NCBI GenBank assembly: GCA_019309115.1
Contig: JAFDGW010000014.1
Coordinates: forward strand, 1 to 64,000
From: Deltaproteobacteria bacterium
GTDB taxonomy: Bacteria > Desulfobacterota > Syntrophobacteria > Syntrophobacterales > Thermodesulforhabdaceae
Reading direction: 5' to 3'
DNA length: 64,000 nucleotides
The position numbers were made by a program, and so were the translations under genes. A model generated the notes under the pieces. That model did not search any database, was not told the origin of the DNA, and saw only the letters and a program-made list of their open reading frames with translations. Below are positions 8,161 through 37,531 of this stretch, one piece after another. The number at the start of each line of letters is the position of its first letter. Position 1 is the first letter of the stretch.

Positions 8161-8259
8161 TGGCGGAAGTGCATGGGAATCGAACCCACCGGGGACAGCC
8201 TTCACTGCCCCCCACCGGATTTGAAGTCCGGGAGCCCCACCAGCGGGCTAGGCACTTCC
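8161..8259 (-). tRNA. selC: tRNA-Sec (selenocysteine), anticodon TCA
   Basis: The minus strand folds as a selenocysteine tRNA of 99 bases including an encoded CCA end. The acceptor strands GGAAGTGC and GCACTTCC pair, the anticodon loop CTTCAAA gives anticodon TCA (8224-8222), and there is a long extra arm and a T-loop GTTCGATTC. The long acceptor stem and variable arm set it apart from tRNA-Ser. Its presence implies UGA recoding in this genome; no selenoprotein gene or selA/selB is visible in the window. Confidence 0.95.
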
Positions 8260-27564: not shown

Positions 27565-29376
27565 TCAGGCGCCGTAGAAAAAGTATATCACTGAGAGTTC
27601 AACCACCAGGAATAGAATAGTCATAATTCCACCGGCTTTTGCATAATCAACGGTACGATAACCACCTGGTCTCATTATCAGAGCATTAACCTGGTGGGTT
27701 GGAAGCACAAAAGTGTTGGACGCTGAAAGTCCGACCACCAAGGCTGCCATGCGTGGATCCGCTCCTGCCATGACAGCCATATTCATGCACAATGGTACAA
27801 GAAGTACTGTTGCTCCAACATTAGATATTACCAGGGTAAAAAAGGATGTCATTACAGCAACGACCGTTAGTAGCCCGATTGGGGAAACTTGGCCAACCAA
27901 TTCCAGAACCTTCTTTGCAATGTACGCAGCAGTTCCGGTCTGCTCAAAGGCTATTCCTAGAGGGATTAAACCACCGAGCAGGAACACGGTCATCCAGTCG
28001 ACTGATTGATAAGCTTCATCAACAGAGAGCACTCCGGTGAGAATCATCCCCAGAGCCCCGGACATTAGAGCAACAGAAAGACGAATTTTTACGAATATGA
28101 CCAGAGTCAGGGCAAAAGCAAGCCAGAAAACGGCATATTTAGCCTTTTCTGGTCTAAGAATTTCACCTTCAAGGGGAGTTGCGAAGGTTAAAATTCTGGG
28201 CTGAGGCATGTTTTTTATCCGGTGAAAACGATCCCATGGGCCTTCAAGAAGGATAACGTCACCCATTCTGAGTTTCACATGGTTAATTCCAGAAATGTAG
28301 ATTCTGTCTCCTGTGTTTATTGCCAAAGGATTTACGCGGAAGCTGTTTTGAAAGTCGGCTTCTTCAAGAGTTTTACCGATTAATTCCGACCTTGGAGATA
28401 CGACGGTTTCCACAACACCGGCATTGGTTCGGGCAAAATCGTCTGCAAAAAGATCGAGGCTATCTTTCAAAGTCCACCCTTTATCTTCTACCAGTTTCTG
28501 GACGCGCTCAATTTTACCCATAACCACTATCGTATCCCCAGGGGATATGGTGTCCGTTTTACGAATCACCCTTCGTTTTTTGCCAGTTTTGGCATTGCCT
28601 ATGGCTACGACCGTTACCAGATAGTCGCGCCTTATACTCAACTCTTGAAGGGTTTTTGGACCATCAAAATCCTCGGGAATGTCCACTTCGTAAGGCTGCT
28701 CAAAAACCTTGTAAACTTCCAGAAGCCTGGTCGTGATACCTACGTCGCTTTCTCCCGATCCGGCGGGGAGAACAAATTTGCCGAAAATAAGAAAGTAAAG
28801 AATCGCACTCGCTAAAAGACAAACGCCTATCGGGGTTTGGGTAAATAAACCAAAAGGTTCCAATTTCTTGCCTTCTAGGACAAGAAGGTCATTCAAAAGA
28901 ATAGTAGGACTTGCACCGACTAGTGTAAGGGTTCCACCAATGATGGCACAAAATCCCATTGGCATGAGAAGCCTTGAAATAGGTATGCCGAGCCTTTTTG
29001 AAATCCTCTGGGTTGCTGGAAGGAACAATGCTGCGGCGCCAATGTTTTGCATCATGCTAGATATAACTCCTACAGTGCCTGCAACTAGGCACATGATACG
29101 TCGTTCACTCCGGCCGCCCAATTTGATAATCGGAGTCGCAACCTTGTTCATGACACCTGTTTTATCGAGGCCCGCTCCTATGATAATGACTGCAATAATC
29201 GAAACAACGGCGTTACTACTTAACCCCGAAAATGCCTGCTGGGGTGTTACGAGTTTCATAAGTGGGAGAAGCACCATCATGATAATGCCAACAACATCTA
29301 CCCTGACCCATTCGAAAACAAAGAGAATGATCGCCAGTGTAAGAACACACAGGGTAAGAATCATATCCGGTGTCAC
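27565..29376 (-). CDS. SLC13/DASS-type anion permease with TrkA-C (RCK_C) domains
   Basis: A 603-residue membrane transporter. Two sets of hydrophobic segments flank a cytoplasmic middle region (about 200-400) that contains two RCK_C-like domains (SIRRDYLVTVVAIGN and SPRSELIGKTLEEADF). The C-terminal signature ASNTFVLPTHQVNALI and LVISNVGATV fit the divalent anion:Na+ symporter superfamily; sulfate or dicarboxylates are plausible substrates. AGGAGGG sits 6 bases before a GTG start at 29376. A 31-codon ORF precedes it in the same transcript. Confidence 0.87.
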   Translation of the reverse strand: MTPDMILTLCVLTLAIILFVFEWVRVDVVGIIMMVLLPLMKLVTPQQAFSGLSSNAVVSIIAVIIIGAGLDKTGVMNKVATPIIKLGGRSERRIMCLVAGTVGVISSMMQNIGAAALFLPATQRISKRLGIPISRLLMPMGFCAIIGGTLTLVGASPTILLNDLLVLEGKKLEPFGLFTQTPIGVCLLASAILYFLIFGKFVLPAGSGESDVGITTRLLEVYKVFEQPYEVDIPEDFDGPKTLQELSIRRDYLVTVVAIGNAKTGKKRRVIRKTDTISPGDTIVVMGKIERVQKLVEDKGWTLKDSLDLFADDFARTNAGVVETVVSPRSELIGKTLEEADFQNSFRVNPLAINTGDRIYISGINHVKLRMGDVILLEGPWDRFHRIKNMPQPRILTFATPLEGEILRPEKAKYAVFWLAFALTLVIFVKIRLSVALMSGALGMILTGVLSVDEAYQSVDWMTVFLLGGLIPLGIAFEQTGTAAYIAKKVLELVGQVSPIGLLTVVAVMTSFFTLVISNVGATVLLVPLCMNMAVMAGADPRMAALVVGLSASNTFVLPTHQVNALIMRPGGYRTVDYAKAGGIMTILFLVVELSVIYFFYGA

Positions 29377-30501: not shown

Positions 30502-30516
30502 GTTGCACAGTGCAAC
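30502..30516. promoter_or_regulatory. TTGCA-N3-TGCAA palindrome upstream of the Lon-receiver operon
   Basis: A perfect 15-base palindrome, GTTGCACAGTGCAAC, about 100 bases before the gene. Partial copies of the TTGCA arm follow at 30532-30536 and 30569-30573, and a second complete TTGCA-N3-TGCAA lies at 30589-30601. The position suits an enhancer site for a sigma-54 activator, possibly the regulator encoded by the third gene. Confidence 0.55.
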
Positions 30517-30577: not shown

Positions 30578-30601
30578 TGGAAGATGTGTTGCAAAATGCA
30601 A
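30578..30601 (+). promoter_or_regulatory. Candidate sigma-54 promoter overlapped by a second palindrome
   Basis: TGGAAGATGTGTTGCA (30578-30593) has GG and GC at exact sigma-54 spacing with a perfect TTGCA -12 element. The palindrome TTGCA-AAA-TGCAA (30589-30601) covers the -12 box. The predicted start near 30604 is only about 14 bases before the ATG, leaving just room for the CGGAGG site. Confidence 0.5.
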
Positions 30602-30617: not shown

Positions 30618-32636
30618 ATGATTTTTTTCAAAAAAGCAGACCGTCCGCTGGAGGAGCCGGAAGAAGGCATATCTACAGATCTGGAACAACTGGAAAAGCG
30701 CTTGGAAAATGCCCAGTTACCAGAAGCAGTTTACAGGGTTGCACTTAAAGAGTTAGAAAAACTAAAATCTATCGACTCGTCAATGGCTGAGTACGGGATT
30801 GGCATTAATTACCTTGATTTTTTGCTGTCTCTTCCTTGGGACAAGTATACTGAAGATAATCTTGATCTCCAGAGGGCAGAGGAAATCCTCAGCGCCGAAC
30901 ATTATGGGCTTGGTCACGTAAAAGAAAGGATTCTTGAATACCTTGCCAGCAGAACGCTATGTTTATTGCAAACCTTTCGTGTTCTTGTGGTTGATGATGA
31001 GGTAATTGCTCGGACGAATCTTCAGTATGTTTTGAAAAAAGAAGGGTATGAGGTCGATACGGCGGAAAACGGTCTGAAAGCCTGCGAAAGGCTAAAGGAG
31101 AAGGACTATGACCTGGTTCTTGCCGATTTGAAAATGGACAAAATGGACGGGCTTCAACTTCTGGACGCAGTAAAAAGATTATCGTCTTCCACCGATGTGG
31201 TCATAATTACAGGGTACGCGACTGTCGGCACGGCCGTAACGGCCCTACGAAAGGGCGCAGTCAATTACCTGTCCAAGCCAATTGACCTGAATCAACTCAG
31301 GCAGGTGGTGGCTGAAATAAAGGAAAGGAGAAAGCACCTTCACATGTCACGAGGTCCCGTTCTGTGTTTTTTGGGCCCGCCCGGTACAGGGAAAACATCC
31401 ATAGGACGATCTATCGCTCATGCGCTGGGGCGTAAATTTGTCCGTATGTCTCTTGCAGGTTTGAGGGATGAATCTGAACTTAGGGGGCACAGGCGAACCT
31501 ATGCTGGAGCTATGCCGGGAAGGATTATTCAAGAAATCAGGCGCCTAGGTGTTAAAAATCCGGTCTTTATGCTTGATGAACTTGACAAGGTGGGACAGGA
31601 TTTTCGTGGCGATCCGTCGGCAGTGCTTCTGGAAGTGCTTGATCCGGAACAAAATGCCCATTTCGTGGATTATTACCTAGATGTGCCCTTCGATCTTTCC
31701 AGGGTGATGTTCATAGCCACTGCAAACGAGATAGAACACTTGCCTGCACCGGTGCGGGATAGATTGGAAGTAGTAGAATTTTGCGGCTATACCGAAAAGG
31801 AGAAACTAACGATAGCCAAACACTTTATTCTTCCTAAACAGCTCTGGGAGCACGGCCTTCGGGAAAAAGAGATAAAAGTGGATGATAAGGCTTTGCTTAT
31901 TATAATTCAAAACTATACCAGGGAAGCTGGAGTCAGGCAACTAGAACGCGAGATAGCAGGACTTTGTCGTAAGCTTGCTCGACTTCATCTTGCCAGCAAA
32001 CAGGCCCTGCCTATTGGCTCAATAGACGAGGACGTGGTGCACGATTTGCTAGGGCCACCCAAGTATCTCCATGAAGTGGCAATGGCTAAACACCGGGTAG
32101 GGGTTACGACAGGGGTTGTGTGGAATGCTTTTGGTGGAGAAATAATCTTTGTTGAAGCGGCGAAGATGAAGGGTGATCGTCAGCTCATACTCACGGGTTC
32201 ACTGGGCAGTGTTTTAAAAGAGTCGGCTCAAACGGCCCTAAGTTATGTGCGTAGCCGGGCCGAACACTACGGCATAGATCCGGACTTTTTTAAGGACATG
32301 GACATTCATATTCACATTCCCGCAGGGGCAGTGCCAAAGGACGGACCATCTGCTGGAGTGACCGTAGTTCTGGCGCTGATTTCTCTACTTACCGGACGCC
32401 CCGCAAGGAGAGACATTGCCACTACAGGCGAGCTTACTCTGAGTGGCCGTATCCTGCCCGTTGGGGGCGTTCGTGAGAAGATTTTAGCAGCCCAGAGGGC
32501 CGGTGTCCGAACCCTGGTATTTCCGAAAAAGAATGAAGTGGATGTTCGAGCACTTGAGCCTGAAATTACTGAGGAAGTAGAGATAGTTTTAGCAAACGAG
32601 TTGGATGAAATAGTAGATCTCGTTTTATTGCCATAA
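30618..32636 (+). CDS. Lon-type AAA+ protease with inserted response-regulator receiver domain
   Basis: A 672-residue fusion. Residues 30-113 match the Lon helical region (INYLDFLLSLPWDKYTEDN and HYGLGHVKERILEYLASR). A complete receiver domain follows (about 119-235) with acidic pair D126-D127, phospho-acceptor D170, T198 and K220. The AAA+ module resumes with Walker A GPPGTGKT (253-260), Walker B FMLDELD (317-323) and Lon-specific RDESELRGHRRTY. The protease domain has catalytic S578 in KDGPSAG and K621. The N-terminal LAN substrate domain is missing. It lies in an operon with a histidine kinase and an NtrC-type regulator, so phosphorylation control of proteolysis is the likely role (inference). 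Confidence 0.93.
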   Translation: MIFFKKADRPLEEPEEGISTDLEQLEKRLENAQLPEAVYRVALKELEKLKSIDSSMAEYGIGINYLDFLLSLPWDKYTEDNLDLQRAEEILSAEHYGLGHVKERILEYLASRTLCLLQTFRVLVVDDEVIARTNLQYVLKKEGYEVDTAENGLKACERLKEKDYDLVLADLKMDKMDGLQLLDAVKRLSSSTDVVIITGYATVGTAVTALRKGAVNYLSKPIDLNQLRQVVAEIKERRKHLHMSRGPVLCFLGPPGTGKTSIGRSIAHALGRKFVRMSLAGLRDESELRGHRRTYAGAMPGRIIQEIRRLGVKNPVFMLDELDKVGQDFRGDPSAVLLEVLDPEQNAHFVDYYLDVPFDLSRVMFIATANEIEHLPAPVRDRLEVVEFCGYTEKEKLTIAKHFILPKQLWEHGLREKEIKVDDKALLIIIQNYTREAGVRQLEREIAGLCRKLARLHLASKQALPIGSIDEDVVHDLLGPPKYLHEVAMAKHRVGVTTGVVWNAFGGEIIFVEAAKMKGDRQLILTGSLGSVLKESAQTALSYVRSRAEHYGIDPDFFKDMDIHIHIPAGAVPKDGPSAGVTVVLALISLLTGRPARRDIATTGELTLSGRILPVGGVREKILAAQRAGVRTLVFPKKNEVDVRALEPEITEEVEIVLANELDEIVDLVLLP

Positions 32637-32662: not shown

Positions 32663-34126
32663 ATGAAATGGCCCTTTGCAAAGCTAAACATAAGACAGAA
32701 GATTGTAATTAGCTTGATCTTCATTGCACTTATAATGTCGCTTATTGCTGGTTTTTCTTATTATTTGCTCACGGAAATGGAACGAAAAGTTGAGTTTATT
32801 CAGAGATCTGATGACCTGAGAAATGCAATCTTGGAGATTCGCCGTTTTGAAAAGAATTTTTTTCTTTATGGTTCACCTTCGACCTTAGAGAAAATAGAAG
32901 ATTATATCGAACAGAGCCTTAAACTTATTGATAGAATATCCTTTAAAACTAAAGGATTGAGGGGTAGTAGTTACCTTGGAAGGATCAAGAATGGGTTGAT
33001 GGAATATCGTGAGCTCGTGCGGCAGCTAAAAAAGCGCTATCCTAAAAAAGGTAGTAATGACTTTAACAAGTTTCAAAGTAAGCTTAGAAAAACCGGGAGG
33101 GAAGTTACGGAAATTGCAGAGGAACTGGTTCTTTATGAGCGTAAGAGAGTTATCGACATAATCAACCATCTAAGAACTCAACTAGTGGGGTCACTTATTG
33201 TGGTTCTCATTGGTGGGATTTTTCTTATTCCGTTTGTTGCAAAGAGAATTGTTCGTCCCCTCAAGGTCATAGAAAAATCGATGCTTAGGATTGCCGGAGG
33301 AGATTTCAGACCTCTTCCCGTCCTGGCCACTTACGACGAAACCCAAAGGGTTGTTGAAGCTTTTAACAAAATGGTTGCAGAACTGGAACGTCGCCAGGAA
33401 CAGCTCATACAGGCCAGGAAGATGTCTTCTCTCGGAATACTCACATCTGGCGTTGCCCATCAGTTAAACAACCCCTTAAATAACATTTCAACGTCATGCC
33501 AGATTTTGATGGAAGATATGGACTCTCTCGACCCCGATTTTGTGAAAACCATGTTGCACAACATTGCCCAAGAAGTGAATCGTGCAAGGGAAATAGTACG
33601 AGGTCTGCTGGAGTTTTCAAGGGTCAGGGAGTTTTCGCTCACGCCGGTTTCTCTTAAGGATGTGGTAGATAAAACGGTTCGTCTTGTATCAAGTCAGGTC
33701 CCGGCCAATGTTGAAATAAGGGTAAAGGTACCTGATCAGCTGATTGTTGAAATAGACAGTGCCCGCATGCAACAGGTTTTCTTGAACCTTATCATGAATG
33801 CTATTGACGCTATAGGCGAAAAAGACGGTTTTGTTGAAATAGAAGCCTGGAAAGATGAAAATGCCCGAAAAGTGTTTATTGAAGTGCGGGATACCGGGTC
33901 TGGAATTCCTGAAGACGTGCTTGAGAAGGTGTTTGACCCGTTTTTTACAACTAAAGAGGTTGGATCGGGAACAGGACTGGGGCTTTCCATTGCTTACGGC
34001 ATCGTGGAGAAACACGGAGGTAGAATATCGGTAAGGAGCAAAGTGGGAGAGGGAACCGTTTTTACCATTGAACTTCCAATCGATAAAGAGTGTCAAGAGC
34101 CTGGCGGTAAAGGAGTGGTTTCGTAA
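32663..34126 (+). CDS. Membrane-bound sensor histidine kinase
   Basis: A 487-residue NtrB-type kinase. Two transmembrane helices (about 13-36 and 172-194) bound a helical periplasmic domain, followed by HAMP (RIVRPLKVIEKSM). The phospho-accepting histidine is H266 in SGVAHQLNNPLNN, and the ATPase domain shows the N-box NLIMNAIDAI, DTGSGIPE and GTGLGLSIAYGIV. It stops directly against the start of the regulator gene. Two receivers in the same operon (in the Lon fusion and in the regulator) are its likely phosphorylation targets. Confidence 0.92.
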   Translation: MKWPFAKLNIRQKIVISLIFIALIMSLIAGFSYYLLTEMERKVEFIQRSDDLRNAILEIRRFEKNFFLYGSPSTLEKIEDYIEQSLKLIDRISFKTKGLRGSSYLGRIKNGLMEYRELVRQLKKRYPKKGSNDFNKFQSKLRKTGREVTEIAEELVLYERKRVIDIINHLRTQLVGSLIVVLIGGIFLIPFVAKRIVRPLKVIEKSMLRIAGGDFRPLPVLATYDETQRVVEAFNKMVAELERRQEQLIQARKMSSLGILTSGVAHQLNNPLNNISTSCQILMEDMDSLDPDFVKTMLHNIAQEVNRAREIVRGLLEFSRVREFSLTPVSLKDVVDKTVRLVSSQVPANVEIRVKVPDQLIVEIDSARMQQVFLNLIMNAIDAIGEKDGFVEIEAWKDENARKVFIEVRDTGSGIPEDVLEKVFDPFFTTKEVGSGTGLGLSIAYGIVEKHGGRISVRSKVGEGTVFTIELPIDKECQEPGGKGVVS

Positions 34127-35479
34127 ATGGTGCCTAAAATTCTAGTAGTTGAAGATGAAAAAACAGCCAGGGATAATCTGACCTACATTCTGAAGAAAGA
34201 GGGTTACAAGGTGGTTGCTGTGGAATCTGGTGAAAAGGCTGTGCAAAGGCTTGAACATGAGGGTTTTGATTTGGTGGTTACAGACCTCAGAATGCGGAAA
34301 GTTGACGGTATGGAAGTGCTGGAGCGAGTAAAGGAATTGCACCCTGAGGCTGAAGTTATTGTTATTACTGCCTATGCCACGGTGGAATCGGCAGTGGAAG
34401 CAATGAAAAAGGGGGCCTATCATTATGTGGCAAAACCGTACAGTATTGATGAAGTACGGGTAATAGTGCAGAAGGCTTTGGAGAAGGTGGAACTAAAAAA
34501 GGAGGTTAAGGAACTTCGCGAAAAGGTTGAAAGAGCTACCGATGAAGAGCCAGTTATCATAGGCAAAAGCGGAAAAATGGTCCAGCTTTTGAACCTTGTT
34601 AATCATGTTGCTGCTACAGACTGTAATGTATTGATAATGGGAGAGACCGGCACAGGTAAAGAGCTGATAGCTCGAGCTCTTCATGCTAGAAGCCCCAGAA
34701 GAGATAAACCATTTGTTGCCATCAATTGCGGAGCCTTTACGGACGAACTTTTGGCAAATGAGCTTTTCGGGCACGAAAAAGAGGCCTTTACGGGGGCTAC
34801 GTCCACCAAAATAGGGCTTTTGGAGGCGGCAAATGGTGGAACCGTCCTGCTGGACGAAATAGGCGAGATGTCGCAGGCTATGCAAGTGAAGCTTCTCAGG
34901 GTTATTCAAGAACGAAAGCTTTTCAGAGTCGGCGGCACCAAGGAAATACCCTTAGATATTCGCGTAGTCGGTGCTACCAATCGCAACTTGGCTAAAGAAG
35001 TCAAAGAGGGAAACTTCAGGCAGGATCTCTATTACCGTCTTAATGTTGTGACTTTGTATGTTCCGCCTCTAGCCGAGCGCAAAGACGACATACCGCTACT
35101 TTGCCAATTCTTTCTGGAAAAGTTTTCCCGCATCCAGAAAAAGAACATAACTGAAATAAGTGAAGATGTTATGGATGTGCTTTTGAATTATGAATTTCCT
35201 GGAAATGTGCGAGAGCTTGAAAATATCATGGAGCGAGCGGTTACACTTTGTCAGGGCTCTAGGATAGAGTTGATTCACCTTCCACCGGACCTGCAGCAGC
35301 TTACCCTGAGGGTTCCAAGAACAAAGCCCAGGGAGTTTCTGACCCTGGAAGAGCATGAAAGGGATTATATCCTTTGGGTACTCAAGAAAGTTAAATGGAA
35401 CAAAAAGAAGGCCGCCGAGATACTCGGAATTGACCGAGTATCCTTGTGGCGGCGCCTAAAAAAATGGGGATTTTCGTAA
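34127..35479 (+). CDS. NtrC-family sigma-54 response regulator
   Basis: A 450-residue regulator: receiver domain (about 4-118) with acceptor D53, AAA+ domain with Walker A GETGTGKE and Walker B VLLDEIGE, and a C-terminal Fis-type HTH (KKKAAEILGIDRVSLWRRLKKWG). The sigma-54 contact loop reads EAFTGA, not GAFTGA, a variant that may still function. The receiver is strongly alike to the one inside the Lon fusion, suggesting duplication and a shared kinase. ATG immediately follows the kinase stop codon. Confidence 0.92.
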   Translation: MVPKILVVEDEKTARDNLTYILKKEGYKVVAVESGEKAVQRLEHEGFDLVVTDLRMRKVDGMEVLERVKELHPEAEVIVITAYATVESAVEAMKKGAYHYVAKPYSIDEVRVIVQKALEKVELKKEVKELREKVERATDEEPVIIGKSGKMVQLLNLVNHVAATDCNVLIMGETGTGKELIARALHARSPRRDKPFVAINCGAFTDELLANELFGHEKEAFTGATSTKIGLLEAANGGTVLLDEIGEMSQAMQVKLLRVIQERKLFRVGGTKEIPLDIRVVGATNRNLAKEVKEGNFRQDLYYRLNVVTLYVPPLAERKDDIPLLCQFFLEKFSRIQKKNITEISEDVMDVLLNYEFPGNVRELENIMERAVTLCQGSRIELIHLPPDLQQLTLRVPRTKPREFLTLEEHERDYILWVLKKVKWNKKKAAEILGIDRVSLWRRLKKWGFS

Positions 35480-35534: not shown

Positions 35535-37477
<1,943 letters not shown>

Positions 37478-37531
37478 AACTCTTTCCCCTCCTTGGTTTA
37501 AATATTCCCTTATCGACAATTACCACCTTTG

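Follow-up and report, generated by a model that had tools for sequence, protein, structure and literature searches.

The window, i.e., the whole stretch of 64,000 nucleotides analyzed here, carries a gene for a Lon protease with a built-in phosphoreceiver domain (RecLon), followed on the same strand by genes for a membrane histidine kinase and an NtrC-type response regulator, in agreement with the operon described in an earlier note on this DNA. The RecLon reading frame begins with ATG behind a GGAGG ribosome-binding site and reads through to its stop codon. The kinase gene starts 26 nt past this stop (at 32663), and the NtrC-type gene (at 34127) begins directly at the end of the kinase stop. 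The features of the locus are:

27565-29376, minus strand: divergent CitT/TrkA_C anion transporter (Pfam), likely counterpart of DVU3299 as described in PMC10102598
29583-30161, minus strand: divergent Usp-like stress protein, just under the Pfam cut-off and assigned with the help of its neighborhood
30503-30515, unstranded: upstream candidate operator palindrome TTGCACAGTGCAA (pattern search)
30578-30593, plus strand: possible sigma-54 -24/-12 element TGGAAGATGTGTTGCA, weak and not conserved in relatives (pattern search)
30589-30601, unstranded: downstream candidate operator palindrome TTGCAAAATGCAA, 86 bp from the upstream one (pattern search)
30618-32636, plus strand: RecLon, receiver-containing Lon protease of 672 aa (ORF, Pfam, NCBIfam, structure-sequence alignment)
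30660-30959, plus strand: Lon N-terminal helical segment, residues 15-114, no LAN domain (aligned with 3m6a residues 3-102)
30981-31310, plus strand: receiver domain, residues 122-231, phospho-acceptor D170 (Pfam, alignment)
31362-32003, plus strand: Lon AAA+ module and lid, residues 249-462 (Pfam)
32022-32627, plus strand: Lon Ser-Lys protease domain with S578 and K621 (Pfam, alignment)
32663-34126, plus strand: membrane histidine kinase with periplasmic four-helix bundle, HAMP, HisKA and HATPase domains (Pfam, fold model) and two transmembrane helices predicted from sequence
34127-35479, plus strand: NtrC-type response regulator with receiver, sigma-54 AAA+ and Fis-type HTH domains (Pfam) and an EAFTGA motif read from the sequence

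Convergent to the RecLon operon lie groEL and groES (35535-37519), so that a chaperone unit adjoins the protease unit; only a few relatives have groE genes close to RecLon. ARAGORN places a selenocysteine tRNA gene (anticodon tca) at window positions 8161-8259. The same genome also encodes a second, ordinary Lon of 823 aa, and RpoN.

RecLon was assigned to the Lon family with a score of 713.6 bits by the NCBIfam 'lon' equivalog model (cut-off 608), and Pfam detects Response_reg at residues 122-231 (105 bits), AAA at 249-389, Lon_lid at 411-462, and Lon_C at 469-670 (263 bits). There is no Pfam match to the LAN substrate-binding domain in RecLon, which begins at the helical segment. Using phmmer, RecLon residues 15-114 match 3-102 of Bacillus Lon (3m6a), and the alignment resumes at residues 244-670, which match 3m6a residues 106-530. 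Since the two flanks match consecutive parts of 3m6a, the receiver occupies precisely the junction of helical segment and motor. The catalytic residues of a LonA protease (Walker K259/T260 and D320/E321; Ser-Lys dyad S578 and K621) are present, as are those of a receiver (acidic pair D126-D127, phospho-Asp D170, T198, K220). Thus, the domain order, the lack of LAN, the placement of the receiver in the linker, and the position of each active-site residue named in the earlier note all hold. The AlphaFold model of RecLon is of moderate confidence (pLDDT 75.6, pTM 0.60) and matches Lon structures across nearly its full length; in this model, receiver helix 5 (residues 224-241) stops just short of the first AAA+ strand at 249.

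A search for the same architecture returned 82 distinct homologous loci from independent assemblies, all with the same domain order. A false join in the assembly was thereby ruled out, and a chance receiver match is excluded by the 105-bit score together with the invariant active site. A scan of named genomes revealed RecLon across Desulfobacterota and in Nitrospirota, and a full-length protein with 55-73% identity is encoded in about half of 60 relatives. No plasmid-borne relative covering 80% of the query was detected. The earlier note had named loss of the receiver acidic residues in all relatives as a refutation of its proposal; instead, D127, D170, T198, and K220 are kept in 88 of 88 aligned sequences and D126 in 86, with E in the other two. 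The Walker residues are essentially invariant in the same alignment, and S578 and K621 are each found in 84 of the 88 sequences, the remainder being gaps, an X, and one Q. In the tree, the Lon part of RecLon forms one group (support 99). In Desulfothermus okinawensis (L147:8842-10853), the RecLon, transporter, and regulator genes are each spread over several frames, suggestive of sequencing error or decay along this whole stretch of the contig.

To count neighbors, we used those 45 distinct loci whose flanks extend for 5.5 kb or more in both directions from RecLon and scored a regulator as full-length at 50% identity or more; 20 loci of canonical Lon, drawn from the same relatives, served as control. 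A full-length NtrC-type regulator lies near RecLon at 38 of the 45 loci, a kinase at 37, both together at 36, and a Usp-like gene at 37, whereas none of the three occurs near canonical Lon at any of the 20 control loci. No regulator was seen nearby at the other 7 of the 45 loci. The window and most Nitrospirota loci have the genes in a single operon, and in many Desulfobacterota the arrangement is convergent. Residues 1-200 of the kinase are confidently folded (pLDDT 85.5) into a long four-helix bundle such as periplasmic sensors have; among structural matches, Adeh_2942 ranks first but is weak (E 9e-4), with NarQ further down the list.

The kinase-regulator module, often accompanied by Usp, CitT, and TauE genes, can exist without the protease, since of 16 genomes selected because their close regulator has no RecLon beside it, 13 show none elsewhere either, with genome incompleteness as a caveat on this count. 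Five such loci combine the kinase-NtrC module with an anion-transporter gene, mostly also with Usp and TauE, and no RecLon was found at these loci or elsewhere in the respective genomes.

The same set of protein types has been described in Desulfovibrio vulgaris, where DVU3303-3305 was termed a 'three-component system' and the reported targets of DVU3305 are the operon that encodes it and neighboring genes (Rajeev et al., 2011; PMC3333781). In a 2023 mutant library, the three genes showed pairwise cofitness above 0.9 (PMC10102598). This shared mutant phenotype could partly be due to polarity, because the protease gene is the first in the operon.

To trace the origin of the Lon receiver, we calculated a tree from 105 receivers, among them those found in the genome under study; it is based on a short alignment, and its bootstrap values are not fully settled. 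RecLon receivers form one clade (98/89), and their sister group consists of the neighboring NtrC receivers (joined at 92/88), bearing out the close relationship proposed in the earlier note. As both the RecLon receivers and the Lon part of the protein each form one group, the simplest reading is that an NtrC receiver was duplicated once into a Lon gene and probably kept its kinase. The next branch outside this group holds two receivers from contig C19 of the same genome (L206:5068-5469 and L206:606-2021), whose cluster also contains two apparent Usp-like genes and a sensor kinase. In the kinase-facing helix alpha-1, 10 of 15 positions are identical between RecLon and the neighboring NtrC receiver, compared with at most 6 of 15 for any other compared receiver of the genome, and the pattern IAR-x-NL-x-(H/Y)-(I/V)-L is common to both receivers across loci. 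Co-variation of alpha-1 adds little beyond this shared signature, since partners at the same locus (0.66) barely exceed pairs between loci (0.63).

The sister relationship, the alpha-1 signature, and the conserved linkage support the proposal that one kinase serves both receivers, although this idea is not new and was already published in 2011. On these sequence grounds, the kinase of the operon may well phosphorylate both. A shared kinase would also suit a Lon receiver that is merely a phosphate sink tuning the flux from kinase to NtrC, with proteolysis itself unregulated; sink receivers occur in other systems. A sink needs no covalently attached active protease, however, and the protease and motor residues of RecLon are as conserved as those of the receiver. 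Moreover, loss of a sink should oppose loss of the regulator, contrary to the D. vulgaris fitness data (PMC10102598), which leaves the sink as the least probable of the explanations considered here.

Somewhat more credible, but still unlikely, is that the receiver acts as a docking or substrate-recruiting domain in place of LAN, pairing with the NtrC receiver or the kinase and delivering this partner to the protease as negative feedback. The lack of LAN in RecLon would be explained, and hetero-pairing between sister receivers is conceivable. Nevertheless, the three D. vulgaris genes agree in the sign of their effect and are closely similar in fitness (PMC10102598), whereas degradation of the regulator would be expected to reverse the sign for the protease gene, except with polar insertions.

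The Usp-like gene and RecLon are separated by 456 bp containing two TTGCA-N3-TGCAA palindromes, 86 bp apart, so that the Usp and anion-transporter neighbors share this regulatory region and its operator pair with RecLon. The whole genome contains eight such sites, two of them in this gap. Allowing for up to one mismatch, a copy lies upstream of 50 of 79 distinct RecLon genes (3.0 expected from dinucleotide shuffles) and was not found in the other 29 upstream regions. The pair recurs at a distance of 84-92 bp at 34 of the 79 loci, against 0.2 expected and at most 2 in the shuffles, and its spacings cluster at 86-88 bp. The site has the form reported for most regulators, palindromes with gaps of 3-8 bp (PMC3333781), and we consider the conserved palindromes candidate binding sites of the NtrC-type regulator. 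No regulon could be read from the eight sites in the genome, since the majority of the six sites elsewhere lie within open reading frames. A conserved sigma-54 promoter was not detected: the weak candidate in the window is not repeated upstream in relatives. The sigma-54 contact loop of the regulator reads EAFTGA instead of GAFTGA, and [E/D]AFTGA is found in 22 of 24 neighboring regulators with a readable loop; that of DVU3305 is listed as GAFSGA. An acidic residue at the first loop position may indicate altered activation or repression.

We regard a DVU3303-3305-type system with one kinase, two receivers, and activation of Lon by phosphorylation at D170 as somewhat favored overall. In this model, the membrane kinase would sense a signal through its periplasmic four-helix bundle and phosphorylate the NtrC-type receiver as well as the sister receiver of RecLon. 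The regulator would bind the paired sites between the Usp and RecLon genes and control its own operon together with the divergent Usp and anion-transporter genes. Proteolysis by RecLon would be phosphorylation-gated, with phosphorylation of D170 most likely turning the protease on. The receiver, which a short linker connects to the AAA+ ring on its N-side, would take the place of the missing LAN domain, and its phosphorylation may alter receiver packing or dimerization and in this way control how the ring assembles or how substrates enter. The architecture, the intact active sites, the gene linkage, the sister receivers, and the conserved palindrome pair are seen directly, whereas we infer that the palindromes bind the regulator, that phosphate passes to the Lon receiver, that this activates the protease, and that the structural route is as drawn. 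The narrower statement, that aspartyl phosphorylation of the receiver, itself a copy from the regulator of the operon, directly switches Lon and that one kinase thus sets both expression and proteolysis, has in our view an even chance of being correct.

The sign of the switch cannot be read from sequence, and phosphorylation might conversely turn the protease off, the unphosphorylated form being active. In relatives of NtrC, where the receiver likewise precedes the AAA+ motor, both signs occur, and some receivers act negatively on the motor. We nevertheless judge an off-switch quite improbable because the D. vulgaris operon is reported as stress-induced and its three genes act together, which activation explains more simply (PMC3333781; PMC10102598). 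One observation does not fit a simple activator: DVU3303-3305 are detrimental in chlorate, i.e., loss of the system helps, whereas the target DVU3299 is needed in chlorate and its loss hurts (PMC10102598). The favored model is further weakened by the 7 loci with no regulator nearby, the 29 upstream regions without the palindrome, and the moderate confidence of the AlphaFold model.

The architecture and the suggestion that phosphorylation activates the protease have been known since 2011 (PMC3333781), so the mechanism drawn in the earlier note is plausible and was published before as a hypothesis. As far as can be told, the origin of the receiver, the conserved operator pair, the wider distribution, and the kinase-regulator modules without Lon are new. 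If the model is true, two-component output would occur directly through regulated proteolysis within the response regulator itself, with no separate adaptor. Our literature search found no report of phosphotransfer to the Lon receiver or of an effect on proteolysis, and given the 2011 proposal, the value of the system lies more in a clean experiment than in the discovery of an architecture. Because the operator pair is conserved and the receivers are sisters, the shared-kinase model can be tested with few proteins.

Compared with canonical LonA of B. subtilis and E. coli, RecLon aligns throughout the helical segment, AAA+ module, lid, and Ser-Lys protease, but lacks LAN, carries a receiver between helical segment and motor, and branches as a separate group. 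With the NtrC family it shares a receiver that is sister to those of the neighboring NtrC proteins and likewise stands ahead of an AAA+ motor; this motor is Lon and not a sigma-54 activator, and no DNA-binding domain was found. The closest counterpart is DVU3303-3305, in which a Lon-protease response regulator, a histidine kinase, and a sigma-54-type response regulator are also encoded in one operon, beside UspA-type and membrane/anion-transporter genes. D. vulgaris belongs to a different order of bacteria, and many RecLon relatives have the kinase-regulator pair convergent to RecLon and not in its operon. With three Desulfovibrionaceae loci, the nearest named relatives (56-59% identity to RecLon), standing in for DVU3303, we classify the window by architecture, gene content, and neighbors as a DVU3303-3305-type system.
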